From positions 11,941-43,184 of IMG/VR virus record IMGVR_UViG_3300030110_002929: a stretch of 31,244 nucleotides of DNA; one strand, given 5' to 3'. Shown piece after piece: positions 2,276 through 31,244 of the stretch (positions are counted from its first letter, which is position 1; the number at the start of each line of letters is the position of its first letter). This DNA is from a virus. The notes below the pieces were generated by a model that ran no database searches, was not told where the DNA came from, and worked only from the letters and a program-made list of their open reading frames with translations. The translations under genes and the position numbers were made by a program.

Positions 2276-2468
2276 CTGTTTTATTTATACAGCAATCCTC
2301 GTATGTACAATTTTCTGCACCAGTATCGTCTTGTGTATTACAGCATGATCCATCTTTTAATTCACAACTTTTATCGTTGTTACAACAAGGTTTACCACAA
2401 GGAGAATTTTCTATTTGTTCTTCACTCATATTTCTAGTATAGTCATAATAATATTCAGACTTAGTCAT
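2268..2468 (-). CDS. Cysteine-rich 66-aa protein
   Basis: This acidic protein has nine cysteines in its last 43 residues (positions 24, 28, 29, 35, 42, 43, 54, 59 and 60), including three CC pairs. The first 20 residues are Tyr/acidic and there is no signal peptide, so the cysteines would stay in the reducing cytoplasm unless the protein is carried in the virion. The pattern could support metal binding of a metallothionein-like kind, but I recognise no family. It ends with TAG, the only TAG stop among the genes here. It overlaps both neighbours by 8 nt and lies between the T9SS cargo gene and the holin-like gene, which suggests co-translation but does not reveal its role. Confidence 0.7.
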   Translation of the reverse strand: MTKSEYYYDYTRNMSEEQIENSPCGKPCCNNDKSCELKDGSCCNTQDDTGAENCTYEDCCINKTDD

Positions 2469-4293: not shown

Positions 4294-4504
4294 ACCACCA
4301 ATTTGTTTCACAATACTTTATATTTTCATATGTATTATATTCATTTGATTCATATAACTGTCCGCCTTCAAGATTAACATTATCGTATAAAATAGCAACT
4401 ACATCATTATTAGAATCTACAATAACAACATCTTTTTCTCTTAATAATCTTTTGCCATCAAATGCATCTTTGCAATTTGGGCATCTATTTTGTATAAACT
4501 CCAT
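4286..4504 (-). CDS. Small CPNC-containing protein of unknown function
   Basis: This 72-aa protein has a CPNC motif at residues 8-11 (MEFIQNRCPNCKDAF), a beta-like middle (DVVIVDSNNDVVAILYDNV) and a single cysteine near the Trp-rich end (KYCETNWWYE). One CxxC plus one more Cys could form half of a zinc ribbon or a redox site, but no full family signature is visible. It has no signal peptide. Its start shares one base with the stop of the MAM-like gene (TAATG) and its end overlaps the T9SS cargo gene by 8 nt, so it is probably translated together with them. Confidence 0.7.
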   Translation of the reverse strand: MEFIQNRCPNCKDAFDGKRLLREKDVVIVDSNNDVVAILYDNVNLEGGQLYESNEYNTYENIKYCETNWWYE

Positions 4505-5391
4505 TATTTAAAACCTCTAATTTGAAAACTATCTACAGCAGCATCTTGTCTAAAATGTGGAGTTGATGAACTATTAGATCCAGCACCTATTACACTAAAA
4601 TATGCTAACCATATATACACACTTGATTGACCAGCAGCAGCTGATAAATCTGCAGTAACATATCTATACTTCTCGTTTCCTGCACTTTGTATTTGTCCTT
4701 GAGAACCTATTCTCACTTGATTAGTATGTGTTGAATCTTCAGCTGTTAGTGAGTTATCTTGCATAACTTTAAAAGTTGCACCACCAGCTGTTCTACTTGT
4801 AAATCCTAAACCTGAACCTGCCTCTGCTGCACTACTTGAACTATCAGCATCAGTGGTTACTGCTACACCTATACCTGTTGCAGAAGCGCCAAATGTACTT
4901 CCAAATAAATGCACAAACATTGTAAGCTCCACAGAATCAAATTCGCTTAAATCAAGTTCTGGTGATCTTAAAGCTCTAATAGCTCCTGCGCCACCTTGAC
5001 CTAAAGAAAGTGAATATGTAGCTGATGCACCACTAAGTGCACTAGATTCATAGACTAGATGCGAAACACTAGATTGAGTAGTAGTTGTATCAATGTCTCC
5101 CAATGTATTAAATCCTCCGCCATGCGATCCATTAGGACCAGTGTTTGAAGATGCCGTGCCACCTCTATCATGAACCCATGCACCTGAATTTGCATTTGCA
5201 CCCAAACCCATATAATTTGTAGAACCAAAAGCTGTTTGTGAATTTGAAGCTTTAGTAAAAACTCCAAAACTTTCATCAAGAGGTTGAAACTTAGGCGAAA
5301 CATTTGCGTTCATAGCAGTCTCAAATATAGTAGCTAAAGATAAAGATCTAGTGCTAGGTACTACTAATGAATTTGATAAAAACAACTGCAT
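4504..5391 (-). CDS. MAM-like beta-sandwich protein, probable tail/adsorption protein
   Basis: This 295-aa protein is rich in Ser, Gly and Ala and lacks a signal peptide. Residues about 70-295 follow the order of strands and motifs in MAM-type jelly-roll domains: W-x-x-x-x-G-x-T-x-S-x-x-TGPxGSHGGG, then a segment ending LRSPELDLSEFDSVELTMFV, and a late AAVDSFQIRGF strand. Extracellular MAM domains mediate adhesion, and phages use similar beta-sandwich folds in tail fibres and receptor-binding parts. The absence of an export signal fits a virion component better than a secreted one. The frame starts at ATG 5391, one base after the previous stop. The fold assignment rests on visual motif matching. 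Confidence 0.6.
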   Translation of the reverse strand: MQLFLSNSLVVPSTRSLSLATIFETAMNANVSPKFQPLDESFGVFTKASNSQTAFGSTNYMGLGANANSGAWVHDRGGTASSNTGPNGSHGGGFNTLGDIDTTTTQSSVSHLVYESSALSGASATYSLSLGQGGAGAIRALRSPELDLSEFDSVELTMFVHLFGSTFGASATGIGVAVTTDADSSSSAAEAGSGLGFTSRTAGGATFKVMQDNSLTAEDSTHTNQVRIGSQGQIQSAGNEKYRYVTADLSAAAGQSSVYIWLAYFSVIGAGSNSSSTPHFRQDAAVDSFQIRGFK

Positions 5392-8020: not shown

Positions 8021-8871
8021 TACGATATACTGTGTCTATCTATTAAATAAGCTTCTACTAAATCTCTATTGTCAGATGATAACTTGCTACTGCAATTTAT
8101 TAATTCGTATAGATCGCCTTTAATTCCATTAGTATTATAACCTAATACACCTGTAGTTATTACACCAGCAGTGACAGTTGTGGAATTAGTTAATGGTTTA
8201 TTAACTCCATTAACTCTTAAAGTTATTGCACCATTTGTTCCTCCTGCATATTCTACTGTAACTAAAAACTTTTGATCCAAAGGAAATTCATCACCAGCGT
8301 TTGTACCTGAATTAAAAGATGTTGCACCAGCATTTATACCTGCAACATTAACAAAATCACCTTTTGTATATATAATTACAAAACCACTTATATCAGTTCT
8401 TGCAGTAAATCCAGAACCAGGCGTACCATCATCTACAAAATGATTTTCACCTAATAAAATATGTGCTGTTTGTCCTAAAGAACTATCTACTTCCATTACA
8501 GCAAAAGTAGTTAAACCTCCTGTACCACCTGAGTTCATAACATCAAATACATCATGCGAAAAATCAAAATCAAAAGTATCATCAGTAGTGTTCCAACTAT
8601 ATTCTTTTTGATACAATCTATCACCACCATCAAAAGTTAATTTTGTATTTACTCCTGTACCAGAAACAGATGGCTGTCTCGTTGCTGCATTAGAAACCCA
8701 ATCAGCAGAGCCTACATTATCTCTCCATCTAGCTACTACACCAGATCCTACAGAGGTTTCTGTTATGCCTGTGTCTGCTTTTAACCAAGTTATAACCTCA
8801 GATAAACTATCTACAGTAAAAGCTGATCCTTGTTTCTTATTCTTTACTAATCCTACACCTAATCCTAACAT
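8020..8871 (-). CDS. LamG/concanavalin-like tail protein
   Basis: This 283-aa protein has the architecture of phage LamG-like beta-sandwich proteins. After a short N-terminal lead come ITWLKADTGIT (28-38), a W-x-D segment (ARWRDNVGSADWV), QPSVSG and LTFDGGDRLYQ. Middle strands follow (TTFAVMEVDSS; KFLVTVEYAG), then a C-terminal GDLYELI...SSKLSSDNRDLVEAYLIDR motif. The order 'WLKADTG - W-x-D - LxFDGGDxL - GDLYE - LVEAYL' is typical of such tail or fibre-associated lectin-like domains, which bind glycans or receptors on the cell surface. No signal peptide is present, consistent with a virion role. Its start overlaps the stop of the giant gene by one base (TAATG). Confidence 0.75.
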   Translation of the reverse strand: MLGLGVGLVKNKKQGSAFTVDSLSEVITWLKADTGITETSVGSGVVARWRDNVGSADWVSNAATRQPSVSGTGVNTKLTFDGGDRLYQKEYSWNTTDDTFDFDFSHDVFDVMNSGGTGGLTTFAVMEVDSSLGQTAHILLGENHFVDDGTPGSGFTARTDISGFVIIYTKGDFVNVAGINAGATSFNSGTNAGDEFPLDQKFLVTVEYAGGTNGAITLRVNGVNKPLTNSTTVTAGVITTGVLGYNTNGIKGDLYELINCSSKLSSDNRDLVEAYLIDRHSIS

Positions 8872-11800
8872 TATTTTTCTAATAATTTTTCTGTTACATC
8901 TTGAAATGGTAATATTTTTCTAAGCGTACCTCTTGCTTTCAAGTCACCTGAATCACCATATTTACTATCTCTTTTGAATCTTTCAAAGGTAGATAATTCT
9001 CTCATAAACTGCATAGCATTACGCCCTGTACTTATAGAAGCTGGTGGCAATGTATAATTTACAAAACGATTTGTATCTGTAAATATTAAAGCGTCATTGC
9101 TTAGTTTTTGTATATTTTTACTATATAAATCTTCATCATCAGACATAGCTCCAACTAATAATAACATTGCAGTCATACCTAATCCATTAAGTAAAGATAT
9201 AATAGCTCTTTGTTTAAACTCTGGTAACGCTCTAAACTCTTCCTGTAGCTCAGACAGTTTAGCTTCACCAGTAAACATTCTGTTTACAAACTCATATCCT
9301 GCTCTGTAAGAACCTATTGACTCTCTACCAAACCTATCTATGTCTTCAGGTTTAAATCTATTGTAAACCAATGTAATAAACCAACGTTTAAATTGTTGTG
9401 CAGCTATACCTAATGAATACATACTAAGTAGTCTTTGATCTAGCTGTGTATAACCTTCACCATGCATAGTAGCTATAGTAGCGTTTATTTTCATTACAGT
9501 TTCTTCATCTATCATATAGTCTTTGTCATTCAAAGCTTTTTGATATTCTTCTTCAGACAACTCTCCAAGAAATGCTGCGCCTTGTATCCATCTTTCAGAT
9601 AATTCCATAGGCAAAAATGCTAATGATTCTATTTTACTAAACTCATCTTTTTGTCCTACTACATCACTAAATGACATTTCTACAACTCTATGTCTTTTTA
9701 ATATGTCCATAGCAGCCCAATCGTTTCTACCTTTTAAACTTGTCCAAAAACGTTTTTCACCTTTAATAAAGTTTTTACCACCTTTAGCTCTAAGCTCTTG
9801 ATATTTACCTGCTAGTATATTACCTACACCTACAGCAGCACTAAACCCTAAATGTATAAGTGCTGTCCATCTAACCATAAATCTTGTAGCTTTATCAAAT
9901 GTAGGACCAAACGGACTAACTTGTGATTGATTACGCAAAAACTTTTGACGCCATACTTTAGTTAAATACTCTGCTGAGTTTACATTACCCATGTTTCTAT
10001 TAACAGCTATAACACCATCAACAAGAGTAGACATATTTTCCATACCTTCAAAAGCTTGTTCACCATTTACTTTAGGCGTGCCTTTTATAAATGTAATAGA
10101 TCTAACGTATTGTCTTAAGTTTTCTGCTAAGTTAAAACTAGTAAGCTCTTTAGCTCTTGTAGTTCTACCAGCATTAAATCTAGAGAATAAACCATTACCC
10201 ATAAGTGTATCCATTTCTAAGTCACTAGCAGTAATAGTTTTGCCATCTGAACCTACACCTTCTTTTAATCTTTGTTCTGCTTGTTTCTTAAGTTTGCGTA
10301 ACTCGTATATTCTTCTTCCTGACTTCATAGTTAACTCACCACCTTCAGTAAGATAAAGTTCTTTGAACTCACCAAATGTCATATTTGTAGCTTTACCATC
10401 AGCACCTGTGCCTTTTACCATAACACTATCTATGTTAGTAGTAGATCCTAAATAGTTTGCATACAATCCAAGCAACCCTCTAGCAGATAAAGCTTCTACA
10501 TTACCCATTTGTACGTGTGGTATATAAAACTCACCCATACCATCTTTACCAAGTAAATCACGATACTTACCAGTAATCTCTAAATACTTATTATAAAAGT
10601 CACGTTCCTGTTGTGATGGATTAGTTGCATTAAACTCTGATTGTGTTTTTAAACTAATACCTGACTGTCTACCTCTTTCATCTTGATTTATGTTAAACAT
10701 ATTACCATATATCTCAAGCTGTCTATTTCTTCTATTAAATACACCCTTTAATGATTTACTTCTTATCAAAGCTCTATCAACAACATCAATTTCATTAACT
10801 ATTTTTTTAACTTCCCTTACATACTTTCTGTACTCTTTTTCCATTTCATTGAGCATTAGCTGTATCTCAGGTCTTTTAGATGTCATATCATTTGCACCAA
10901 ACCATTTACGTATTACCGTAATATCTTCATCTGTTTCTCTAAATCCTGGTTTGGTTTGTCTAAGTTTATCGGCTTGTTTTTTCATAGCCTTTTTACCAAT
11001 AGTCAAATGTAGCTTATATAACAATCTAGGCGATGCTAATTCATCTTCTTTATCTTGTAGTTCTCTAGCTTCTTTAGTTAATCTTTCAATAGAATATCTT
11101 TCTAAATCACCTAATTGATTTTCTTTTTGTTCTACATTAGCTACAGAGTCTTGATAACGAGCATACTTTGATCTTAAATAATTAAGTGTAGGCTTATCAG
11201 CATTATCTAACTTCAATGGATCAAACCCTGTAAATCTTAAATACTCTTCAAAGGTTAATGTTTGTGTAAGCTCTTGTAAATGATCTTGGTAAAACTCTCT
11301 TTTATCTAATTTAAGTTTAGCTGAGCTTGCAGGTTCTACAGTTTTTTGTGCATTTATTTTATTAGTAAGCTTTTGTGCTAGATCTGCATTCTTTTGTTTT
11401 TTAAATATATTAGAGTGTTTACGTATAAGCTCATTAGACATATCTACTATCTCTCTAGCTTCAATGCTTATTTGTTTATCTAGTTCTGTTTCTAATAACT
11501 GATCTAATAAACCAAATGTATTTCTAACGTAGTCTTTAGCAAACAATGGTGTTAGTGATTTGCCTTTAAATCCTAAACCATTTTTTATATAATCATACTG
11601 TAGTAGCGCATCTTTGATTTCTTGTGGTAATAAAGTAAACTCGTTACGTGCCTGCTGTATAGTTTCTTCTACAGAAAATTTATTAATCTCATTAGGACTA
11701 ATCTGTATATTGTTTTGGAAGTATTCACTTTGTCCTTCTACATTACTAAACAACAAATACTTTTTTACAAAGTTAGATCCAGGTTGTTGACTATACGTTT

Positions 11801-14800
11801 CCAGCACATTATAAACTTCTTTTAATGTTCTATTATTGTAGTTTACTGCAGGTACAGCTTGTGCTACTTTCATTAAATAATAATCGTCTATAAGCTTTCT
11901 ATGTTCGTATCTTGTAAAATCAAGCGTAATCTTTTTAGTATCTTGTATATATTCTATAATTTGTCTTGCTTCTGGCGTATACATAAACGATGTAGACTTT
12001 TGTCTATCTACTTGTTTTTGCAATAAGTCAATAGCGTGTTTAACTAATGGATCTGATCTAAAGTTATCTATTGTATTAGGATTAATAAAGCTATTAGCAT
12101 TATCCTCCGTAATAGTATTTATTAACTGTTGTGCATCGTGTCCGTGCTGAGGTATTGATTTGTGTACAGATAATGCTTTACCAATACTAAATATTTCATC
12201 AGTTAGTTTTTCTGTTTTATACAATAAATCAAACAAAGCTTCTTCTGTTTGTCTGTTCTTACCTTTAAGCTTTGATATATCTAAATTAACATCACCAGAT
12301 CTACTAAATTTTTTAACTGCACTTAATGCGCCTGCTTCGCCTACCAAATTAAAATACTCTTTGTAAGCGTTCTTTATTGCTTGATTGGTATCTGTAGTAG
12401 TCATAATAGATTGATCGCCTCTATGCTTATCGTATAGCTTAACAATAGGATGATTCATTATGGTTGCAACATCTTTTATGCTTATACCATTTCTAGCTAA
12501 GAATGTATATATATTTACTGTATTAGGAGTTAATCCTAGCTTATTAGCATATTGATACTTAGCGTTATCTAATACTATATTAAGTAGTTGTGCTACAGTA
12601 AATGCATCGCCTTCTGGTTTACCCTCATCAAATCTATCTATTAATGAATCTATTTCTTGGTAACCTTTAATATTTATACCAAACTTAAATCCTACTTTGT
12701 GCCCAGCCATCACATTTAATACACGTTGTAATGATGCTATTGTACCAATCATATTCTGTGCAGGCACATTGTCATTAAAGAACTGTGCATCACCTGTTGG
12801 TAAAAGCTGATTGTCCATTTCTAGTTTTTTACCATAGAAACTTTCAACTGCTTTAATAGCATCTTCTGCTACTTCTTTTATATCTATAGGAGTTGTAATC
12901 TCTTTATACCTACGACTATCTACTTCTATATCTCCTAGTAGTTTTATGTTTAAGTCTAACAACTCATTAGCTGCTACTTGATAGTCTTCTAGTAAATTAG
13001 TCTGCACTCTAGCCTCTTGTCCTAATGGGCTAATCTTTGTTGTGCCTGGTACATTACCAATATGTGCATAGTTTAAGTATATAGCATCACCATCTAAATC
13101 AGCACCCATAACATGTGATACTCTTGATGGTATAGCTATTGTAGATCTTGCGCCATCTACACCTTCAGCTGCAAAACCTTTTACAACAAACACTACAGAT
13201 GATTGTTTACCGTGTGCAGGTATACGTGTTCCTAATACTAGGTCACCCACCTTGATACCATCTTTTTTTGCAGATGCAGGTATTATAGCTTCTGATACCA
13301 CAAAGTCTTTGCCTTGTTCTATCAATGTATTAAGATTATTTTTATATTGCTGTCCTGATACCTCATCAACTAAGTCAGATACTTTTATATATGATTTCAA
13401 ATCTCTACCTATCGGGGATGTCTGATAAGCTATTGTACCACCAAACATAGCCTTAGTTCCAAACTTAACAATTCTTGATGATGCTAACTGTTGCAGCATC
13501 TTGTGCAATTGTGGATGTAGTCCTGGAGCATATTTTGATAATGATGTATTTAGATTACCAAAAAACTCTTCACCTATTAGTTTGCTTAAAAACTCTGTAT
13601 CTTTTTGTCTTTGTTCAGTTGTAGACTTGTCACTATATATAACATTACCACTTCTTTTTTGTTCAAAGCCTACCATAGCTCTAGCTGCTAGTTCATGCAT
13701 ACGAGATACCATAGTTTCTTCTTCAGCTTCTAGATTAGTGTGATGATGTCCAAATAGCTGTGATGGCATATGGAATGAATGTCTTTCTTTATCAAGTTCT
13801 ACTTGTAAACCAAATCCTTCGCCATTCACGCCTGCCCAAGTTCCATCTACATATATATCATCTTGTCTTTCTACAACCTCATCTTCTGTAGTATTTTCTA
13901 AATCATATGTATATTGTTCACCACCTGCATATAATTTTAAAGCAGATTCAAAAGTTGCAATTGGTATAAAATCGTGTAACTGTCCTGTTACTTCTGGTCC
14001 AGGTATAAGTCTAGACTCGCCTATACGTTCTTTTCTAGCTCTTAATATATTAGCTATCTTTTTAAGATACGGACTATTTTGTTCCATTTCAGGAGTTATC
14101 TCATCTATCTTAAACTTAGCAAAAGTTCTTTTACCTATAAGCTTACTATTGTTAGTTTCAACATAATCATAAACATGTTTGAATTGATTGCCAACCTTAC
14201 GCATAGATCCAAACTTCTTACGAATTATTTCACCGTCACCAGGCAATACATATGCTTGTGCATCTGTTGCATTAAACCCGTCAAAGTCTGTTACATCTTG
14301 AAATGCTACAAACTCTATAGGCGTATTACGATCGTGTGGCGTATGTCTTTTGATAGCTCCCTCTGCTCTTTTTATATAATCTATCTCACTTTCACTTTCT
14401 TTATGTTTACCTATAAAAAATTCTTGTGCAAAAAACTTATTAATAGAATAGTTTAAAAGATAGTTGTCTATGTCGCCTTGTTTTAATTTTTGTCCCTTTT
14501 CACCTATAAGCGTATTAAGTTTAATTTGATCTGGATCTTTTAGTAATTCTTTTTTAAACTTTTTAGCATATTGTTTTAATCCTACTAAAGCTAAACCATC
14601 TTTCTTTTTAACTATCTTAAACGGATTAACTCTTTTACCATCTTTATATTTTACATCATTATATCCAGCATCTAATGCCATTTGCAACAACCTTTGTCTT
14701 TGTTTAAGGGTTTGTGCAATAGGTGTACTAACATAGTATCTTCTTTTGGCTGCACCAAATACTGCTATAGGTTGATCATAGTATACCGTTTCACCTTTAT

Positions 14801-17800
14801 TAAATCTAGATAAAGCATAAACAAAATCATTAAAGTCTGTAAGCATAAGCTCTTGACTATCCATCTTAACATACTTTCTATTTCTACGCGCATCTTGTTT
14901 TGCATTTTCAGGTGTGCTAAATACACCAGACAACATACTTATATTATGTTCTTTACCTGTCCTATCAGACAACATTAATGCATATATATTACTATATCTA
15001 CCTACATCTTCGTTGATAAATCCTAAACCTTTCATCAATGAAATATATGCGTCTATATTTTGTTGTGCTAAAGTTGCATAGTTTTCATTTTTATTATGCA
15101 ATGAGTTTTCTTTATTAATAGTTAAAGTAGGATTTTCTGCTACATCATTAACTTGTGTTATATAATTCTTAGCTCTTGATTGAACTATCAAGTCACCTAA
15201 TAGTTTATTAAACCCACCTTTTATTTGTAACACACCACCTTGTACGAAATCACTTTGTCTTGATTGGAATAGTTGTTTTAATGAAGAATATCTTTTGTTA
15301 TCAAATGTATATTGATTACCTGTTTCTGTAAGTTTTCTTTTATCAATAAATGCCCAATAAGACGAATCACCATATAGAGATGTAAGCGCTTCTGCTATAC
15401 CATTACCAGATTCAATAGCAGCTATCATAGCTTTTACTGTATTTCTATCTTCTTGTATTGTAGGTCTAAAGTATTTATTAGCTTGTTTGGTTAGTGTAGA
15501 TTGCCATCTAGCTTCGTCTTTACTAAATGATATGCCTGGAACCCAAGTGGTTTGTTTATTATCACCTCTCATAAACCCTACCTCTTTCATTGTTTCAATC
15601 TTTTTATTAGCAAAGTCAATAGACATTTCTAATAATAAAGCATCTACAAATGCATCTTTTTTAAGTTTAGATTTAAGGAATGCTACAAATCTAGCTACAG
15701 ATGCATTATCACTATTAGTAACAGAATTTACAAATGTAAATACATCACGCTTTTTACTTTGCTGTCCTAATGAATGTAGCTCAGATAATAAATCCTTCAC
15801 ATCTACAGGGTTTTTATCATTCTTTTTACTTTCTTCTATAGAATAAGCCTGAATAAGCTTTGATGTAGTATCGCCAAATAATGTTTCTTCTTGATCGTAT
15901 ATGTTGCCTTTATCGTTTTCTTCTGCTACCTGCTCATTTTCTTGATTAAAACTAAATACTAATGAGTCATCAGACCTTTCGCCCTGATTAAGTCTTGCAT
16001 CTACAGATTGTATAAGTCCATCTACAACTCTTTGATATTCTGCAAAAGATAATCTTTCTACCTGTGCTCTAATCTTTCTAAGTAGATAGTCATGTTCTAC
16101 AGATGTTACTTCAAATGGTGGAGTTTGTTTATCTGTATTATATGTTTTATTGTTTTGTTTATATATTTCTTTTGCTATTTCTTGTACAGCATCTTCACCC
16201 TTGACACCTTTAGCTACTACCTTTTGTTCTATAATTCTAAACAATCCAACCGTTGATATAGCATCAAATCTAGATTGCTTTAACATTGTGTTTTTACTAT
16301 AAGAGTTTTGTTTAAACTTATTGTCTTTATTTAAAATGTTAAAGTTTCTTTGAACATAAGTCATTGCCTCATCATAGTTCATTAATCTAACTTCAGGTAA
16401 AACTTTATCTAATACAGACTTTCCACCATCTTTATCAGCTAGATTAAATATACGTTTATACATACGCTTTAATAGACTATCATAGTTATTAGCGTCTGTT
16501 TTATTATCTATAACATTTCTAATGCCTCCACGTTTATTAAACTCTTCATTAGAATATGCAAATGCTTCTTCTAATAAACCAAACTGTGATTTATCTTGCA
16601 ATCTTTTAATTACACCATCTTCTGATAGTTTTGAAAATAAAGATTGTGTTGCATTTTTATAAGCTATAGTATTACCTGATTCGGATGACTTCTGTATAGT
16701 ATCTAACAAATTAGATATATCATCTTCTAAAGTTTCTTTGTCTTGCTTAAATAATGAATTTAATATATCTCCACCAGTGACAAATTTTTTACCAAGTTTG
16801 TATCTTGTTAGTAATGGATAATTATATTGAATATTATCTAACAACCTTACAACAGCTCCTCCTGGTGTTATAATTCTTCTTTTAATAAGTAAAGTATTAA
16901 GACGTTTTTGTATTGGTGTACCTGCTATTGATTGATAATATGGATGTGATAGCTCATGTATCAAATCAGTTTGCATAGCTTTTCTTGGATTTACTATAGC
17001 TGTACTAGCTAAAAATACAGCAGATGCAGGTGCACCAAATCCTTCTATAACTTGTCTATTTGTAAATGTTATATTTTTACCAGGAAACTTTTTTTCAAAA
17101 GCACGAGTTAAATATCTTCTAATGAAAAACTCTTCCATATCTACTCTTTCAAGATATGATCTAGCAGGTTCTTTATCGTTAGTATCTTTTCTTTTTGGAG
17201 TTTCTCTATTAAAGTCACTACTTTGATCATAGAGGCTTTGATTGTCTGTGTTGTCTTCTGCTGTTGTCTCTTCTTTTACAGATTCTTCTACTGCTTGTTT
17301 TGTTGGTCTTTTACTTTTTTCTTTTAATAAGTTTTCTATCTGTTCAGATTTTGCTTGACGTACGGACTCTTCTTTTTTAGTTAATTTTTTCCCTGTTTTA
17401 ATTTTTTGTGCAATGTCATTAATAACACCCTGTGAAACCTGTCCTGTGTCTACAAATTTGTTGTATGCCTCATCACTAAGTGCTTCAGTTTCTACTTTTT
17501 TTTTTATTTTTTCTCTTTTAGCTTCTACTTTTTCTGTAAGTTCATCAACTTTTTCTGTAGCTTTATCTACAACTTTTTTACCAACTTCTTTAGTTTTATC
17601 AACTACGGCTCCAGCAACATCTGCTATTGTTTCAGTAATAGTTTTATCTTTTAATTTACTTTCTACAAATGTTGTAATTTTATCTAACACCGCACCAGAT
17701 GCACCGACTAAATTTGCTTTTTTTATTTTTTGAACTATTTCTTTAGCTTTAGTTTTTACTTCTTCTGCTGATGGCACACGGTCACCAAATATTTCTCTTG

Positions 17801-20036
17801 CTGCACTTATTTCTTTTTCTAATGCTTCAGATGTTTTTGGTGCATTTTGCTTTAAATACTTTTTAGCAAAGTTTTTACCTTGATCAAATTGTTCTTGTAA
17901 GAATGTACGTAAATTTTGTGCTGGCTCACTTTGAATAACTTCTTGTGCTTTTTCTTGCGCAAGGCCTAACGCATCTCCAGTAGCTTTTACTACACCTTTT
18001 TCTCTAACAGCTTGTACTCCTTTTTGTACGCCTTCTTTAACAGCTTGTGCTCCTTTTTTTACAGTATCAACAACCTTTTCTACTGTTGTAGGTTTTTGTT
18101 GTAAACCTTCTGTAGTAAACTCTTGAAACTGTCCTGGCGTTAACCCTTTAGATGATCTTTTTACTTTGCCATCTTTTCTTAGTTTACCTGCTCTCAATGA
18201 AGCTATATTAGTAATTAATTCTTCATTAGATTGTATTTGTTCTTCTTGCAATTGTACAGCAACATCATGTTCTCTGTTTGTTAATTCAATTTGTTCTGCT
18301 AATACTTCAGGTTTATTCTTAATAGTTTCATTATGAAAATCTATTTGTTCTTGTCTTTGTTCATTAATTGCACCTATAGTTCGTTTAGCTTCTTCTATTT
18401 GTACACGAGCTAAAAATATTTGTTCTCTACCTGCTTGACTTAAAGAGTTATCTTTAAATGTAGTTCTGTATATATCTTCTGCTTGTTCTATTGCGGCTAT
18501 AGTGTCTTCACCTAAATCTGTTTGCATTTGTCCTTCAGCAACCATTCTTTCAACTCTTGACTTAGCTAAAGCTGCATTACCATTACTATCTATAACAGTA
18601 TAAGCTATATACTTTAATCTATTTTTTTGTGCTGAATCAAATTTGTTATCATCTATAAACTCTCCAAGTCTTGTTTCAGCTTCTTGTAATTGATACGATC
18701 TTTCAGCTATAGCATCAACATAACCCCCTCTAGAACCCATAGCTAAACCTAAAGCAAATGCACTTACTCGTGTTTGTAGCATTTCATCACTTTTGAAAAA
18801 TTCACTAAAAGTAACAAAGTCTTCGCCCTTTTGATCTGCTATAGCTCTACCTTTTATCCATTCTTGATAAACCTCCTGATATTGTTCGACCACACCTTCA
18901 GTTACACCTGTTGCACCTGCCTGTACAAATGGTAATATTTTTTGACCAAAGCTAGCTTGTTTTGGTATATTTCTTAAACCTGCTGTCAATCTACCTAATC
19001 CACCAAACACTAAACCAAACTGTGCTATATCTGCTGCAATCCAATTAGTATTATCTCTCCATACTTGCGATGCTGCAGCTTGCGCTTCTTGTGGTGTTAA
19101 ACCATCAGCTAATCCTTGCTGTAATGTTTCTCCTGCTACAAACGCTCCTTCTGCAAAGTTACCACCGACACCACCACCTATTGCTGATGCAATAATGTTT
19201 GGAGTTTTCTTTAATGTTTCTACTGCAACTTGTTCACCTTTTAATACACCTTTTTGTTTGGCTAATTTTTTACCAGCTTTTACAAGCTTTGGTTGATATA
19301 ATCTATCTGCTATACCAAACGTAGATGCCGCTTTATATACTTTATTAGAGTTAAGCATTATTCTTGTTGCAGTAGCTGCTGCACCTGCAGGTAAAAAGAA
19401 TGACATAGAATATGGTAAAAGCTTTGCTACATCAGTAGCCCAAAATCTTGGATCGGCTAATTGATTCCAACCTACAGATTTCATTTCTTCAGGAATAAAT
19501 GTAGTATTAGCATTCATTATATCTGAGCCTTTTCTTTGTAAAAAATCACCTATAGTAGTTTGCTGATCTACATCATCATCCCATGGTGTTACAACAGCCT
19601 TAAGATATTCAAAAGTATCTCCTGTACCTTGTATAAGTTGCCCTGTACCTGCAGCTAAACTTCTTGATAACATTGATTCAGAACCTGTAGCATCAGCTAA
19701 TGCAGCTCCACCAGCTATACCTGCGGCTAAACCTAATGGACCACCTAGTGCACCACCTATAACACCACCACCTACAGTAAAAGCGTCTTGAGCAGAAACT
19801 ATAGGAGCTAATGAAGCATTAGGATCAACACCCACGCCAGTAGGTTTGTAACCTAATTGTTCTTGTTGTAATTGATTTTGTTGCTGAACATACTGTTGTC
19901 CTGCATATGCACTTAAAGCATCATCTGCTTGTGTTTGTTCATTAAATATACTATCTAAAAAAGCACGAGTTCCCTGAGAACTCATACCTTCATCATACTG
20001 TTGTATATCTTCTTGTGGTGTATTGTTTTCTGCCAT
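8871..20036 (-). CDS. Giant virion protein: zincin motif plus RNA-polymerase-like core (putative virion RNAP)
   Basis: This 3721-aa protein (about 420 kDa) fills 36% of the window. Visible parts: a Gly/Ala-rich hydrophobic region (about 82-125); a Lys/Ala-rich amphipathic helical linker (about 650-945); a zinc-metallopeptidase motif HELSH (H1027, E1028, H1031); and a polymerase-like region. The latter has TDAQAY (1924-1929), RIPAHGKQSS (about 2270) and GADLDGD with D2313, D2315 and D2317. The first, second and last match features I recall from giant phage double-psi-barrel RNA polymerases, and DxDGD is the Mg-binding motif of cellular beta'. Hydrophobic helices lie near 3385-3412 and 3595-3615. 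In crAss-like phages such polymerases are packaged and injected for early transcription, and I infer the same here. TAATG overlaps occur at both ends. Confidence 0.75.
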   Translation of the reverse strand: MAENNTPQEDIQQYDEGMSSQGTRAFLDSIFNEQTQADDALSAYAGQQYVQQQNQLQQEQLGYKPTGVGVDPNASLAPIVSAQDAFTVGGGVIGGALGGPLGLAAGIAGGAALADATGSESMLSRSLAAGTGQLIQGTGDTFEYLKAVVTPWDDDVDQQTTIGDFLQRKGSDIMNANTTFIPEEMKSVGWNQLADPRFWATDVAKLLPYSMSFFLPAGAAATATRIMLNSNKVYKAASTFGIADRLYQPKLVKAGKKLAKQKGVLKGEQVAVETLKKTPNIIASAIGGGVGGNFAEGAFVAGETLQQGLADGLTPQEAQAAASQVWRDNTNWIAADIAQFGLVFGGLGRLTAGLRNIPKQASFGQKILPFVQAGATGVTEGVVEQYQEVYQEWIKGRAIADQKGEDFVTFSEFFKSDEMLQTRVSAFALGLAMGSRGGYVDAIAERSYQLQEAETRLGEFIDDNKFDSAQKNRLKYIAYTVIDSNGNAALAKSRVERMVAEGQMQTDLGEDTIAAIEQAEDIYRTTFKDNSLSQAGREQIFLARVQIEEAKRTIGAINEQRQEQIDFHNETIKNKPEVLAEQIELTNREHDVAVQLQEEQIQSNEELITNIASLRAGKLRKDGKVKRSSKGLTPGQFQEFTTEGLQQKPTTVEKVVDTVKKGAQAVKEGVQKGVQAVREKGVVKATGDALGLAQEKAQEVIQSEPAQNLRTFLQEQFDQGKNFAKKYLKQNAPKTSEALEKEISAAREIFGDRVPSAEEVKTKAKEIVQKIKKANLVGASGAVLDKITTFVESKLKDKTITETIADVAGAVVDKTKEVGKKVVDKATEKVDELTEKVEAKREKIKKKVETEALSDEAYNKFVDTGQVSQGVINDIAQKIKTGKKLTKKEESVRQAKSEQIENLLKEKSKRPTKQAVEESVKEETTAEDNTDNQSLYDQSSDFNRETPKRKDTNDKEPARSYLERVDMEEFFIRRYLTRAFEKKFPGKNITFTNRQVIEGFGAPASAVFLASTAIVNPRKAMQTDLIHELSHPYYQSIAGTPIQKRLNTLLIKRRIITPGGAVVRLLDNIQYNYPLLTRYKLGKKFVTGGDILNSLFKQDKETLEDDISNLLDTIQKSSESGNTIAYKNATQSLFSKLSEDGVIKRLQDKSQFGLLEEAFAYSNEEFNKRGGIRNVIDNKTDANNYDSLLKRMYKRIFNLADKDGGKSVLDKVLPEVRLMNYDEAMTYVQRNFNILNKDNKFKQNSYSKNTMLKQSRFDAISTVGLFRIIEQKVVAKGVKGEDAVQEIAKEIYKQNNKTYNTDKQTPPFEVTSVEHDYLLRKIRAQVERLSFAEYQRVVDGLIQSVDARLNQGERSDDSLVFSFNQENEQVAEENDKGNIYDQEETLFGDTTSKLIQAYSIEESKKNDKNPVDVKDLLSELHSLGQQSKKRDVFTFVNSVTNSDNASVARFVAFLKSKLKKDAFVDALLLEMSIDFANKKIETMKEVGFMRGDNKQTTWVPGISFSKDEARWQSTLTKQANKYFRPTIQEDRNTVKAMIAAIESGNGIAEALTSLYGDSSYWAFIDKRKLTETGNQYTFDNKRYSSLKQLFQSRQSDFVQGGVLQIKGGFNKLLGDLIVQSRAKNYITQVNDVAENPTLTINKENSLHNKNENYATLAQQNIDAYISLMKGLGFINEDVGRYSNIYALMLSDRTGKEHNISMLSGVFSTPENAKQDARRNRKYVKMDSQELMLTDFNDFVYALSRFNKGETVYYDQPIAVFGAAKRRYYVSTPIAQTLKQRQRLLQMALDAGYNDVKYKDGKRVNPFKIVKKKDGLALVGLKQYAKKFKKELLKDPDQIKLNTLIGEKGQKLKQGDIDNYLLNYSINKFFAQEFFIGKHKESESEIDYIKRAEGAIKRHTPHDRNTPIEFVAFQDVTDFDGFNATDAQAYVLPGDGEIIRKKFGSMRKVGNQFKHVYDYVETNNSKLIGKRTFAKFKIDEITPEMEQNSPYLKKIANILRARKERIGESRLIPGPEVTGQLHDFIPIATFESALKLYAGGEQYTYDLENTTEDEVVERQDDIYVDGTWAGVNGEGFGLQVELDKERHSFHMPSQLFGHHHTNLEAEEETMVSRMHELAARAMVGFEQKRSGNVIYSDKSTTEQRQKDTEFLSKLIGEEFFGNLNTSLSKYAPGLHPQLHKMLQQLASSRIVKFGTKAMFGGTIAYQTSPIGRDLKSYIKVSDLVDEVSGQQYKNNLNTLIEQGKDFVVSEAIIPASAKKDGIKVGDLVLGTRIPAHGKQSSVVFVVKGFAAEGVDGARSTIAIPSRVSHVMGADLDGDAIYLNYAHIGNVPGTTKISPLGQEARVQTNLLEDYQVAANELLDLNIKLLGDIEVDSRRYKEITTPIDIKEVAEDAIKAVESFYGKKLEMDNQLLPTGDAQFFNDNVPAQNMIGTIASLQRVLNVMAGHKVGFKFGINIKGYQEIDSLIDRFDEGKPEGDAFTVAQLLNIVLDNAKYQYANKLGLTPNTVNIYTFLARNGISIKDVATIMNHPIVKLYDKHRGDQSIMTTTDTNQAIKNAYKEYFNLVGEAGALSAVKKFSRSGDVNLDISKLKGKNRQTEEALFDLLYKTEKLTDEIFSIGKALSVHKSIPQHGHDAQQLINTITEDNANSFINPNTIDNFRSDPLVKHAIDLLQKQVDRQKSTSFMYTPEARQIIEYIQDTKKITLDFTRYEHRKLIDDYYLMKVAQAVPAVNYNNRTLKEVYNVLETYSQQPGSNFVKKYLLFSNVEGQSEYFQNNIQISPNEINKFSVEETIQQARNEFTLLPQEIKDALLQYDYIKNGLGFKGKSLTPLFAKDYVRNTFGLLDQLLETELDKQISIEAREIVDMSNELIRKHSNIFKKQKNADLAQKLTNKINAQKTVEPASSAKLKLDKREFYQDHLQELTQTLTFEEYLRFTGFDPLKLDNADKPTLNYLRSKYARYQDSVANVEQKENQLGDLERYSIERLTKEARELQDKEDELASPRLLYKLHLTIGKKAMKKQADKLRQTKPGFRETDEDITVIRKWFGANDMTSKRPEIQLMLNEMEKEYRKYVREVKKIVNEIDVVDRALIRSKSLKGVFNRRNRQLEIYGNMFNINQDERGRQSGISLKTQSEFNATNPSQQERDFYNKYLEITGKYRDLLGKDGMGEFYIPHVQMGNVEALSARGLLGLYANYLGSTTNIDSVMVKGTGADGKATNMTFGEFKELYLTEGGELTMKSGRRIYELRKLKKQAEQRLKEGVGSDGKTITASDLEMDTLMGNGLFSRFNAGRTTRAKELTSFNLAENLRQYVRSITFIKGTPKVNGEQAFEGMENMSTLVDGVIAVNRNMGNVNSAEYLTKVWRQKFLRNQSQVSPFGPTFDKATRFMVRWTALIHLGFSAAVGVGNILAGKYQELRAKGGKNFIKGEKRFWTSLKGRNDWAAMDILKRHRVVEMSFSDVVGQKDEFSKIESLAFLPMELSERWIQGAAFLGELSEEEYQKALNDKDYMIDEETVMKINATIATMHGEGYTQLDQRLLSMYSLGIAAQQFKRWFITLVYNRFKPEDIDRFGRESIGSYRAGYEFVNRMFTGEAKLSELQEEFRALPEFKQRAIISLLNGLGMTAMLLLVGAMSDDEDLYSKNIQKLSNDALIFTDTNRFVNYTLPPASISTGRNAMQFMRELSTFERFKRDSKYGDSGDLKARGTLRKILPFQDVTEKLLEK

Positions 20037-27073: not shown

Positions 27074-30000
27074 TTAATTGTAGGATTTACGGTATTTAGC
27101 CATTATTGCAAATATATTAAATTTTTCGGTTGTTCTTGCAGATAAATTAGCACTTAAATATGTACCAACCACCCTTTGTGTTGATTCTTGATTTCGTAAT
27201 GGTATTCTTAAAACACCTTCTCTATATTTATGTAAAGTGTTTTCAAATAAAGTTGCAGACGGATATCCTGGCATATTAGTTGTTCTAATGTCAATTCTTG
27301 TTCTAGGGAACGAATCTGATTCAAAATGTAAATCTTCAAAATACATACCTGCATCTGTATTTTCTATTCCTCTTCTTATAACAGTTGAATTATTAGCATC
27401 ATCTAATGAATAAGCCAATATATTGTTAGAGTTGTTATCAATGTGTTTGACAGTTGCCACAATGTTTAAGTTATCAAACTTTTTGTTTTCTCCTGGTGCA
27501 TCAGTAATAATTTTTTCTATATATGATTTGTCAATTATTCTTAACGCTAAATCGTTTTGTAAATCAGTATCGTATTCAAGATTTCCATCTGAATCTACAC
27601 CAGTCATATAAAAAGGATATGAATCTTCTGCATGAAATGCTGTAAAGTCACCACTAGCTGATAATGCATTATGTAAAAATATATCATCAAAAAATCTAGT
27701 TTTTTCTTCACTGCCTTCCCACTGCCATAACTGTAATGCTCCTGAAGATAATTCATGTGTATAGAAATTATAGCCCTGCATATTAACTCTATCAGAAAAT
27801 CCATATACACCTAATAAACGTCTACCAAAATTATTATCATCAGAGTGTCTAAATCCTCCAATTAAGTCAGGCTCTCCTTCAAAGTTTTCATAAGAAATCC
27901 AAGGTAGTCTTGACTTAGGAGTATATAAAGATCCATTGTGTTCTATCCATTGTTGAGGATAAACGCTATATTTTGACACTACTGCATTTATATCTTCATT
28001 AAATCTTATAGTTGAGCTAGTAATTATCTGATCAGGATTACCTAAAACATTTTGTCCTAAATAAGGATCAAATGTTTCTGTTGGATTTTGTACTGTATCA
28101 CGGTGATCAAATCTTGCTCTATCACTAAATGTCATATATAAGCTATTGCTTGAATAGTCAAATGCACCATGTATGCCAACGTGATATAGTGGCATATCAC
28201 ACATATGAACTCTTTTTGCATCATAAAATCTTTCTTCTGATTTTAATCTACCATATGCTACAGCTTTTTCAAATAAATCTCTTGTTCCTAAATCGTCAGA
28301 TACACTTACAAGTTTTTTATCTGATCCATATTTTAATAGTTTAGCATATCGTATATCAAAGAAAAATAAATTACGTTCACTTGCTACTACACTATGCATG
28401 TGCTTAGTTCCATACTTAATAGATATATATTGATGTGATTCAATTGTATCACCAGATCCTGTAAATATAGAATCAACACCAGATGTATCTTGTAAAAATG
28501 TTCTAGGATTTACTAATAACTGTCCAAAGGCATTTTCTTGGAAAAAATGTATTTCATTTTGAAAATTAATGATTCTATTAATTTGTCCATATATAGCCTC
28601 AACATCATAAAAGTTAAATATTGGAAATGTTCTAAATGCATCTGTTTGTTCACCCGATAGTTTTGTTTTAGAGTAAGCTATTTCTACTGGTAAATCAGTA
28701 TATTGTTGATCATCATCTTGTAATGATAAATAACTTTTTAAATTATTTTCTTGGGAATATACATCATTGTAAAACCAATCATTACTAAATGGTGGATTAT
28801 TCTGATCAAAACCTTCTACATGGTCATTAGCAGCTAGGTGTAAACCACTTCTCATTTCAGTATTAACAAATGATTCACAAGGGAACACAATCCATTTAGA
28901 AAAACTTTTTTCAGGATATGGAGATGTAGTCATTTGATGTGAATATAAACCAACAAATGTATCACCACCCAAGACTGTAGTATGATGCTCTTGTACATCT
29001 ATATTAATAGGATGAAAATTACCTGCATTTACCCATCTTGTTTTTTGTATTGCCTCTAATGAATCTCCACCATATTGAGAGTCGTTAAATCTATATATAT
29101 TAGCATAATAATAATACGGTTGCGCTACAGCTGAATGAGCACACACTAAACCATCCGATTCTATAAAAGGCTTAGCTGCTTTATTCCACAAATAACTTTG
29201 CCCCCTAATTATTTGCATAACATCAGGCATATGCATCATTTGTTTACTAGTATTAATAAGTATTGCTCGCGTACCCATTTGCAAAGTTGATACAGTTTCA
29301 TAAGCTAAATCTACACCTTCTGTATTCGTTATTTTTCCATACAACCAAGTATGACCATATGTATTTGGTGCATATAAATATCTAGCTCCCAATGAAAAAT
29401 TAGAAAATCCTCTTTTTTCAATGTACCATTCTTTACCACCATTATCTTCATTTACGTATTGTGTAAAAAAATCTTTTGGAACAAATTCACCTTGACCTAT
29501 TTCTTTTGCATTATTTATGGCAGAATTATAAGCAAAATCATCACGACTTACAGGTGATTTTATACCAGTTAAATTAAAATTATTAAATGAAGCGTCTGGA
29601 TTAGTAGAACCATTAAATGCAGTAGAACTATCTGTAAAAAGAGTTGGATCGGTAACATCGTGAAAAAAAGCATTTTCATAATTATTCACACCACTTATAG
29701 AAACATATAACTGTGTTGTATATCCATCACCATTATAAGTAGGATAATTTCTAACGTATGGCTCATAATATGTATCTAATACAGCACATTTAGCTACCAT
29801 AACACCAGACTCATTGTCTTTTGTTATTTTTTTTGTAGAAAATATTAAACCTTGATCTCTTTGATTATCAGCGTTTCCTAAAGCTTGATACTGTAAAGAA
29901 CTTTGTGAACCTTCCAACATAGTAGTAAAATTGCCAGAAGCACTAGAGTTTGCAGATATAATACCAGACCAACTATTAAATCCATGAGCACTACTAGGAG

Positions 30001-31244
30001 CTATAAATGTACCATATTCTTGAAGATCGTTGTTATTCATCCTTTCTTCATTATATAGCTTCAATATACTTACCCATTGTAATTTATCTTCTCCTGAAAA
30101 AGCATATGGTCTAATACCAAATGTACTATCTGGACTGTACATTAAACATGCTCTTGCTTGGGTGTGTACATCTGCATACGCTTCAGTAGGAGTAGTTGAG
30201 CCTGGATGATACATTTTGCCATATGATCCAAACTCTCCGCTACCAGCACCATATACATTTTTTAATGTTTGTGGGTTGCTTTCAGATTCATTTAAAAATC
30301 TTGGTTTACCATCACCATCTTTTACAACCACACTATTAGATCCAGCATTGACACCAGCATATCCATTTAAAACTCTATCGTAAATTTCATCTGTATTTTC
30401 AGCTACAATAGCTGCAGTATCACCAGCTTGTACTTTTTCCGCTCCAATACCGCCATCAAAACTATTGCCTTTTCCTTTTACATATCCATGAGACAATTCT
30501 GATCTTCCATAATTACAAACTTGATTTACTAATCCTGACTGAACAATAGTTCTATCTGATTCAGTTCTTTCAGCTCTACAAACTCTAAATCCTGATATTT
30601 TTTCTCTTACGTGTGGTGGTATTTTAAAGGTAAAATCAATAGCTAAATCAAATGTATAATGATAGCCCGATTCTCCTGGACCTGCACAAAAACCATACAT
30701 CTGAGGTGATACATTTGTAGTATAGTTTGTAGATCCATGATACACAACATCTGCTAAATGTTCGATATTGTACCCAAAGTCAAAACTACTTGTATCATAT
30801 TGAACACCATGACCAGGTACAGGCATATCTGTATGTGCACTTATTCTATAATCTTGTGCATATGGATTTTCTCTCCATATAGTTCTACTGGCAGTAGCAT
30901 CTCTACCTAATTCAGTATTTTCTAAATCTAGCTCCCAAGCCTTGTCATAATGATTTGGCATTTTAATATCACCAATCCATAATACATTACCAGGATCTCC
31001 ATTTAAATCATAAACCAAAACACCAAATCTATATGTTTCACCTCTTTGATAACCTCTTTTATTACCAGAGGCATGGGCATCTTTATTAGATCCAATTGTA
31101 AAACTAGCTGTGTATTCTGTATCGACATTGTTGGTAGCTCCATCAGCACCTGCTAAATTATCTGTTTGTATTGATGGGTTAGCTACATTAGTAGATATAA
31201 ATTCTGTTTGTGAATTATTAACTCCACCTCTATTATTTCTTGTA
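27074..31244 (-). CDS. Large tail protein of crAss-like stabilisation/muzzle type, 5' end cut by window
   Basis: The frame is open to the right edge: 1389 codons are visible and the true start lies outside. A TTG at 31018 is not the start, because in-frame codons upstream encode a coherent sequence (KRGYQRGETYRFGVLVYDLN...). That RGETYRFG...DLxG...WIGDI-x-MP block and a later run (QINRIINFQNEIHFFQENAF; YISIKYGTKHMHSVV; NLFFFDIRYAKLLKYG) match, as I recall them, the large 'stabilisation' tail proteins of crAss-like phages, named muzzle in the phi-crAss001 virion. Such proteins close the distal end of the short tail. The gene is followed with no gap by the first cargo-type gene. The family call is from memory of motifs. 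Confidence 0.65.
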   Translation of the reverse strand, partial: TRNNRGGVNNSQTEFISTNVANPSIQTDNLAGADGATNNVDTEYTASFTIGSNKDAHASGNKRGYQRGETYRFGVLVYDLNGDPGNVLWIGDIKMPNHYDKAWELDLENTELGRDATASRTIWRENPYAQDYRISAHTDMPVPGHGVQYDTSSFDFGYNIEHLADVVYHGSTNYTTNVSPQMYGFCAGPGESGYHYTFDLAIDFTFKIPPHVREKISGFRVCRAERTESDRTIVQSGLVNQVCNYGRSELSHGYVKGKGNSFDGGIGAEKVQAGDTAAIVAENTDEIYDRVLNGYAGVNAGSNSVVVKDGDGKPRFLNESESNPQTLKNVYGAGSGEFGSYGKMYHPGSTTPTEAYADVHTQARACLMYSPDSTFGIRPYAFSGEDKLQWVSILKLYNEERMNNNDLQEYGTFIAPSSAHGFNSWSGIISANSSASGNFTTMLEGSQSSLQYQALGNADNQRDQGLIFSTKKITKDNESGVMVAKCAVLDTYYEPYVRNYPTYNGDGYTTQLYVSISGVNNYENAFFHDVTDPTLFTDSSTAFNGSTNPDASFNNFNLTGIKSPVSRDDFAYNSAINNAKEIGQGEFVPKDFFTQYVNEDNGGKEWYIEKRGFSNFSLGARYLYAPNTYGHTWLYGKITNTEGVDLAYETVSTLQMGTRAILINTSKQMMHMPDVMQIIRGQSYLWNKAAKPFIESDGLVCAHSAVAQPYYYYANIYRFNDSQYGGDSLEAIQKTRWVNAGNFHPINIDVQEHHTTVLGGDTFVGLYSHQMTTSPYPEKSFSKWIVFPCESFVNTEMRSGLHLAANDHVEGFDQNNPPFSNDWFYNDVYSQENNLKSYLSLQDDDQQYTDLPVEIAYSKTKLSGEQTDAFRTFPIFNFYDVEAIYGQINRIINFQNEIHFFQENAFGQLLVNPRTFLQDTSGVDSIFTGSGDTIESHQYISIKYGTKHMHSVVASERNLFFFDIRYAKLLKYGSDKKLVSVSDDLGTRDLFEKAVAYGRLKSEERFYDAKRVHMCDMPLYHVGIHGAFDYSSNSLYMTFSDRARFDHRDTVQNPTETFDPYLGQNVLGNPDQIITSSTIRFNEDINAVVSKYSVYPQQWIEHNGSLYTPKSRLPWISYENFEGEPDLIGGFRHSDDNNFGRRLLGVYGFSDRVNMQGYNFYTHELSSGALQLWQWEGSEEKTRFFDDIFLHNALSASGDFTAFHAEDSYPFYMTGVDSDGNLEYDTDLQNDLALRIIDKSYIEKIITDAPGENKKFDNLNIVATVKHIDNNSNNILAYSLDDANNSTVIRRGIENTDAGMYFEDLHFESDSFPRTRIDIRTTNMPGYPSATLFENTLHKYREGVLRIPLRNQESTQRVVGTYLSANLSARTTEKFNIFAIMAKYRKSYN

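Follow-up and report, generated by a model that had tools for sequence, protein, structure and literature searches.

The open reading frame (ORF) at 8871–20036 of the window, the 31,244-nucleotide stretch of viral DNA analysed here (bases 11941–43184 of a fragmentary 43,184-base viral record), is very probably best explained, as a whole, as a single-chain fusion of the complete virion-packaged RNA polymerase (RNAP) block of a crAss-like phage. Its core was homologous to the virion RNAP (vRNAP) of phage phi14:2, and its two ends matched the separate N and C subunits found in relatives on either side of the polymerase (R). The fused chain contained no cysteine, whereas in relatives with a split block a single cysteine was found on either side of nearly every cut.

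Organization of the locus and of the fused chain

The frame began with ATG and ran for 3,721 codons without an internal stop. A sequence-only reading had described a 3721-aa ORF with four motifs, and both the length and the motif positions were correct; the strand, which it did not give, was minus (Table 1). The hydrophobic ends that it mentioned were visible as a Gly/Ala-rich stretch at residues ~88–115 and as LLNGLGMTAMLLLVGAM near residue 3617. Nothing usable was obtained when the whole chain was compared with Pfam, PHROGs, and PDB sequences, and a DNA-level search of phage records gave no match.

The phage of the window is crAss-like, as indicated by the muzzle protein encoded nearby. Gene-order comparison placed the genes for cargo and transcription behind that for the muzzle, as in phi14:2, the arrangement expected of Crassvirales. 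Four neighbouring cargo ORFs upstream were free of cysteine, like the polymerase chain, and the 654-aa product held the place of phi14:2 gp79. The phage lysozyme domain of the 759-aa product was N-terminal (residues 17–139), and this protein is possibly a peptidoglycan hydrolase ejected together with the polymerase. Elsewhere in the window, a 616-aa protein (2461–4311, minus strand), also found in L023–L025, had a signal-like N-terminus, many GCxDxxAxNYxxxANxDDGSC repeats, and 33 cysteines. Its C-terminal tail weakly matched that of Por secretion (type IX; E 2e-4), and the host may export this protein. A DnaB-type helicase was located outside the window on the same contig (record G000, bases 3557–4951, L011; E 2e-84).

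Table 1. Coordinates of the polymerase chain, its modules and motifs, and the neighbouring genes in the window
Feature	Residues	Position	Strand	Evidence or remark
Single-chain virion RNA polymerase (N module, HExxH domain, RNAP core, C module)	3,721 aa	8871..20036	minus	0 Cys
Stretch matching N subunit (phi14:2 gp78 and relatives)	188–248	19293..19475	minus	hhalign
Putative zincin region (limits approximate)	~1000–1180	16497..17039	minus	sequence
HELSH motif	1027–1031	16944..16958	minus	alignment
RNA polymerase core	1760–2660	12057..14759	minus	hhalign, profile, AlphaFold2 and fold searches
TDAQAY	1924–1929	14250..14267	minus	alignment; nearly invariant in crAss-like polymerases
RIPAHGKQSS	2271–2280	13197..13226	minus	alignment
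GADLDGD	2311–2317	13086..13106	minus	predicted catalytic DxDxD of beta-prime-like barrel
Stretch matching C subunit (phi14:2 gp76, crAss001 gp49)	3508–3636	9129..9515	minus	hhalign
Probable cargo protein, directly upstream of polymerase ORF	654 aa	20036..22000	minus	position, 0 Cys
Probable cargo protein	759 aa	22000..24279	minus	phage lysozyme PF00959, E 3e-16; 0 Cys
Probable cargo protein	339 aa	24279..25298	minus	position, 0 Cys
Probable cargo protein	591 aa	25298..27073	minus	position, 0 Cys
Crassvirus muzzle protein (5' end beyond window)		27074..31243	minus	PF25731, E 2e-76; 8 Cys

The chain was composed of four parts, an N module (residues ~1–930), an HExxH region (~1000–1180), the RNAP (~1760–2660), and a C module extending to residue 3721. 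The C-terminal stretch aligned with the gp76 family at P 95% and E 4e-8, and the C2 profile matched C subunits at E 4e-7 and weaker. At the N-terminus, the alignment to the gp78 family was weak for the window protein itself (P 40%, E 3e-4); the N1 profile matched the N subunits of several relatives at residues ~124–241 (E 0.001–0.03), and the N-subunit profile matched the group members L005, L024, and L025 at ~190–1000 (E 3e-7 to 1e-5). Since the subunits matched by the two ends are those encoded on either side of the polymerase in phi14:2 and crAss001, the chain corresponds to a fused N-(zincin)-RNAP-C block, and, as judged from these comparisons, reading the ORF as a fusion is right. Both the fusion of the polymerase with other giant proteins and the presence of HELSH and polymerase in one chain, as proposed in the sequence-only reading, were thus borne out, along with a third module.

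Other full-length single ORFs of 3,645–3,772 aa were found in six relatives (L002, L005, L006, L008, L024, and L025; 53–94% identity), and in most relatives the polymerase block was encoded as two or three proteins. Among 80 loci drawn with phi14:2 gp77, the arrangements N+R+C, NR+C, N+RC, and fully fused N-R-C were observed; a search with Carjivirus gp44 returned one viral contig only. Full N-R-C fusion was also observed in a further lineage, a second, distant fully fused set of 5,220–5,639 aa (L077, L080, L084, L099, and L104). A FastTree tree required a minimum of nine changes for N|R and five for R|C; exact placement on it was uncertain owing to several long branches. Both partial fusions and subunits carrying a zincin had been annotated before: crAss-like entries in GenBank include "RNAP associated protein fused to zincin protease" and "RNAP catalytic subunit fused to unknown RNAP subunit", and a review mentions RNAPs of up to about 6,000 aa (PMC10136315). 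The earlier statement that these proteins are separate chains in crAss-like phages therefore holds for phi14:2 and crAss001 but not as a general rule.

The HELSH motif was kept in every relative covering the region (L002, L005–L008, L010, and L023–L025), with divergence from the window of up to 47%. Because HELSH and the polymerase motifs were kept in diverged relatives, the four motifs are not chance occurrences. The context of HELSH, NP-x(9)-DLIHELSHPYYQ-x(9)-KRLN, aligned weakly (E 0.004–0.008) with NP-x(9)-AIHEFAHIFID-x(8)-KRLQ of L040, L041, and L047, and a conserved LLEEAFAYSN downstream of it in the group is a possible third-ligand site. The N subunits of Carjivirus and ctbg_1, which are annotated as zincin-protease fusions, had HExxH near their C-terminal ends. 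A direct alignment of the window zincin with the Intestiviridae zincin gave no score, and the structure model of the region was poor (pLDDT 53), with no fold match. The HExxH domain may act as a protease or have a purely structural role, and any self-processing of the chain, as suggested in the sequence-only reading, would depend on this. Its place relative to the joints varied, being near R|C in L040, L041, and L047, at the end of N in Carjivirus gp45, and between N and R in the window.

The RNA polymerase core

By profile and model, residues ~1760–2660 are a two-barrel polymerase homologous to the phi14:2 vRNAP. Across 23 aligned sequences, some of only 17% identity, Asp1925 of TDAQ, Arg2271 and Pro2273 of RIP, and Asp2313, Asp2315, and Asp2317 of DLDGD were invariant. 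Against phage records, tblastn matched residues 2157–2320 and 2382–2533 with weak scores and to crAss-like records only, mostly annotated as RNAP catalytic subunits. Alignment by hhalign with the polymerases of phi14:2 (gp77), crAss001, and cr111_1 covered residues 2009–2533 (P 97%, E 1e-10), with the RIP and DxDxD motifs in register. An earlier match to 6VR4 was set aside as circular, the alignment having included phi14:2; when repeated without phi14:2, a profile of the window group and five other crAss-like lineages found 6VR4 at E 1.4e-64. The profile of the close group alone did not reach 6VR4, and the intermediate lineages were needed.

The AlphaFold2 model of residues 1760–2660, for which the input alignment included phi14:2, had a pLDDT of 64 and a pTM of 0.56. 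Its sole significant match in Foldseek was 6VR4 (E 3e-11), and it was superposed on the vRNAP structure over 690 residues with a Z score of 15.9. The next structural matches were RDR2 (Z 11.2), P74 gp62, and QDE-1 (Z 9.7). Both barrels of the 6VR4 fold were present in one chain in this model of pLDDT 64, and the core matched two-barrel polymerases rather than the T7-like single-subunit fold. The RNA-polymerase-like core claimed in the sequence-only reading was accordingly recovered, and the model agreed with its expectation of double-psi barrels around residues 2250–2350.

Cysteine residues at the joints

The window chain had no cysteine, against about 49 expected at the rate of the genome, and the 12 full-length fused chains, including that of the window, had none in 53,371 residues. 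In split blocks, cysteines were placed at the ends that face a cut. They were counted within 10 residues of an end in 65 non-redundant loci clustered at 80% identity, and were present in the last ten residues at 93 of 99 joint C-terminal ends and in the first ten at 92 of 99 joint N-terminal ends. Free ends had none (0/57 and 0/49), the subunit interiors of the 65 loci had 126 in 338,776 residues, and the other ORFs of the same loci had terminal cysteines at 5/88 and 2/88 ends. Two cysteines were never found at one end, and histidines near the ends were rare (2/106 and 10/105). The extra middle piece of L096 (754 aa) had cysteines at positions 3 and -3. Extra splits of the block were observed in L064, L096, and L115, and the 871-aa piece of L064 had a cysteine at both ends. 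The presence of a cysteine at each split end and the lack of it at free ends suggest disulfide links between the pieces.

About 6% of the joint ends lacked cysteine, mostly through misread starts, introns, and frameshifts, with some cases unaccounted for. Most exceptions coincided with start calls placed too early (L065 and L082), with ORFs that were broken or interrupted (L059, L064, and L075), or with an unrelated inserted ORF (L034). With the depositors' own gene starts, the rule was followed at every split joint in ten annotated genomes, drawn from Suoliviridae, Crevaviridae, Steigviridae, and Intestiviridae together with Flavobacterium phage Fpv1. Among these, DAC15, frurule, and cr116_1 had N on the opposite strand, and its product still ended in cysteine. 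The annotated start of crAss002 gp33 (L018:11158), which precedes by 32 codons an MSC start that fits the rule, is probably that much too early. For R ORFs, joint state and cysteine presence were concordant in 66/71 and 71/75, and the discordant ORFs were traceable mainly to start calls or fragments. Cysteine never changed against the rule in independent pairs supported by the tree; on tree-corrected pairs alone (5 and 4 supported), the sign tests did not reach 0.05.

Zinc binding by the joint cysteines was set aside, with one cysteine per end and hardly any histidine. A cause at the DNA level was also set aside: TGT and TGC were both used, the offsets varied, the gaps between genes ranged from overlaps to >500 bases, and N was sometimes on the other strand. 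The flanking of each cut by one thiol on either side is apparently new; it was not found in print, and a literature search of incomplete coverage gave no report of terminal cysteines or disulfides in crAss-like polymerases.

Transport of the polymerase block

The vRNAP of phi14:2 (gp66 in RefSeq, gp077 in KC821624; PDB code 6VR4) has the same polymerase fold and motifs as the window chain, and both blocks lie behind the muzzle in the same N-R-C order (gp78-gp77-gp76 in phi14:2). The block of phi14:2 is, however, divided into three proteins of 1,797, 2,180, and 1,421 aa, with only four cysteines, all at joints (gp78, -1; gp77, 3 and -2; gp76, 3), whereas the window has one chain and none. In crAss001, the homologous cargo proteins gp47, gp50, and gp49 are virion proteins by mass spectrometry (PMC10172136). 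Unlike the window, crAss001 has three genes with N on the opposite strand, and the cysteines lie at -3, at 5 and -9, and at 5, respectively, plus one interior. Carjivirus communis (p-crAssphage) shares with the window a zincin domain in an RNAP-associated subunit and the fusion of R to C (KP06_gp45 and gp44); it differs in its separate N, in cysteines at -2 of gp45 and 3 of gp44, and in its total of 6,027 aa. The long fused chains L077, L080, L084, L099, and L104 resemble that of the window in being single ORFs with an RNAP core and no cysteine, and a C-subunit match was found in the first four; they are longer, mostly without HExxH, and distant on the tree.

In N4-like phages, the ejected giant polymerase has been reported to be cysteine-free, which was attributed to passage through the tail and periplasm (PMC3715699, PMC3915230). 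The vRNAP of N4 (Schitoviridae) is an ejected single chain of ~3,500 aa with HExxH (PMC12633501); the window chain is cysteine-free too and would likewise be ejected, and its two-barrel core differs from the T7-like single-subunit fold of N4. The vRNAP of P23-45 is homologous to cellular RNAPs and fused into a giant virion protein (PMC10770324), as in the window, but the fusion is to the tape measure and the phage is a siphovirus of Thermus.

The polymerase of the window is probably carried in the phage particle, and its ejection and role in early transcription are suggested by analogy with phi14:2 and crAss001. The fused chain would share the particle with the other cargo proteins that lack cysteine, would pass through the muzzle and tail before the DNA in a partly unfolded state, and would refold in the host, where it would transcribe early genes. 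It would stand at one end of a spectrum: relatives have one, two, or more cuts in the block, with one cysteine on each side of a cut, and on the simplest reading disulfides would join the pieces head to tail, with one thiol on N, two on R, and one on C. Since N and C are monofunctional and R is bifunctional, such linkage would give a linear chain with capped ends. The split block would then leave the particle as one covalent thread, and its disulfides would be reduced in the cytosol. Gene fusion would substitute a peptide bond for the disulfides, so the joint cysteines would be needless in the fused chain and hence absent from it. On balance, and with limited confidence, we favour the view that one disulfide per joint holds the split polymerase together until it separates on cytosolic reduction, and that fusion removes the need for cysteine.

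Three points were counted against disulfides. Virions are assembled in a reducing cytosol, many of these phages live in anaerobic guts, and in L078, L079, L082, L091, and L094, where avoidance of cysteine seems to be relaxed, the polymerase subunits had 12–40 cysteines, 10–40 of them interior, unlike all other lineages, while retaining those at the joints. The terminal cysteines might instead be tags for non-covalent docking or packaging, or a redox switch, which we regard as rather doubtful. In favour of such a role are the reducing cytosol in which virions form and the crAss001 map (PMC10172136), which does not resolve the regions of the cargo; a tag would, however, be expected also at free ends and on other cargo, where the counts were 0/57 and 0/49, and 5/88 and 2/88. 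It would also fit poorly with the strict number of thiols, one per joint end and two on middle pieces, including that of L096, and disulfides between subunits are present in the crAss001 tail. Taken with the cysteine pattern, these other disulfides of crAss001 virions make a disulfide-chained polymerase the likeliest arrangement.

The fused chain could also be a polyprotein cut into N, R, and C by its own zincin, and the conservation of HExxH in the group and the zincin domains annotated in RNAP-associated subunits of crAss-like phages are in line with this. We judge it unlikely, because HExxH was also found in relatives with already separate subunits and was absent from 4 of the 5 long fused chains counted (L077, L080, L084, and L099), the N4 vRNAP has HExxH yet stays a single chain (PMC12633501), and neither a third ligand nor the zincin fold was confirmed for the window. 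It is very improbable that the chain is a fused early polymerase of a housekeeping-like kind, produced in the infected cell without being ejected: the gene lies within the virion cargo cluster behind the muzzle, its orthologues are virion proteins, and its product has no cysteine, as in the adjoining cargo ORFs. The record is a single metagenomic contig, from which an artefact of assembly or reading that joined separate genes might be suspected; the six full-length relatives, also single ORFs, refute this, and its probability is negligible.

For phages that inject a polymerase, protein of several hundred kilodaltons has to go through a tube too narrow for the folded enzyme, and several subunits must also arrive in order and together. 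Chaining of the subunits, if true, would be a simple and testable answer. The cysteine rule covers the most abundant phages of the human gut and predicts which cysteines matter. If the proposed chaining is true, the rule would explain why the fused form in the window has none, and it would provide a way to tell from sequence alone which virion proteins are transported as a single unit. The wider value of the fusion in the window lies in the cysteine rule that it exposed.
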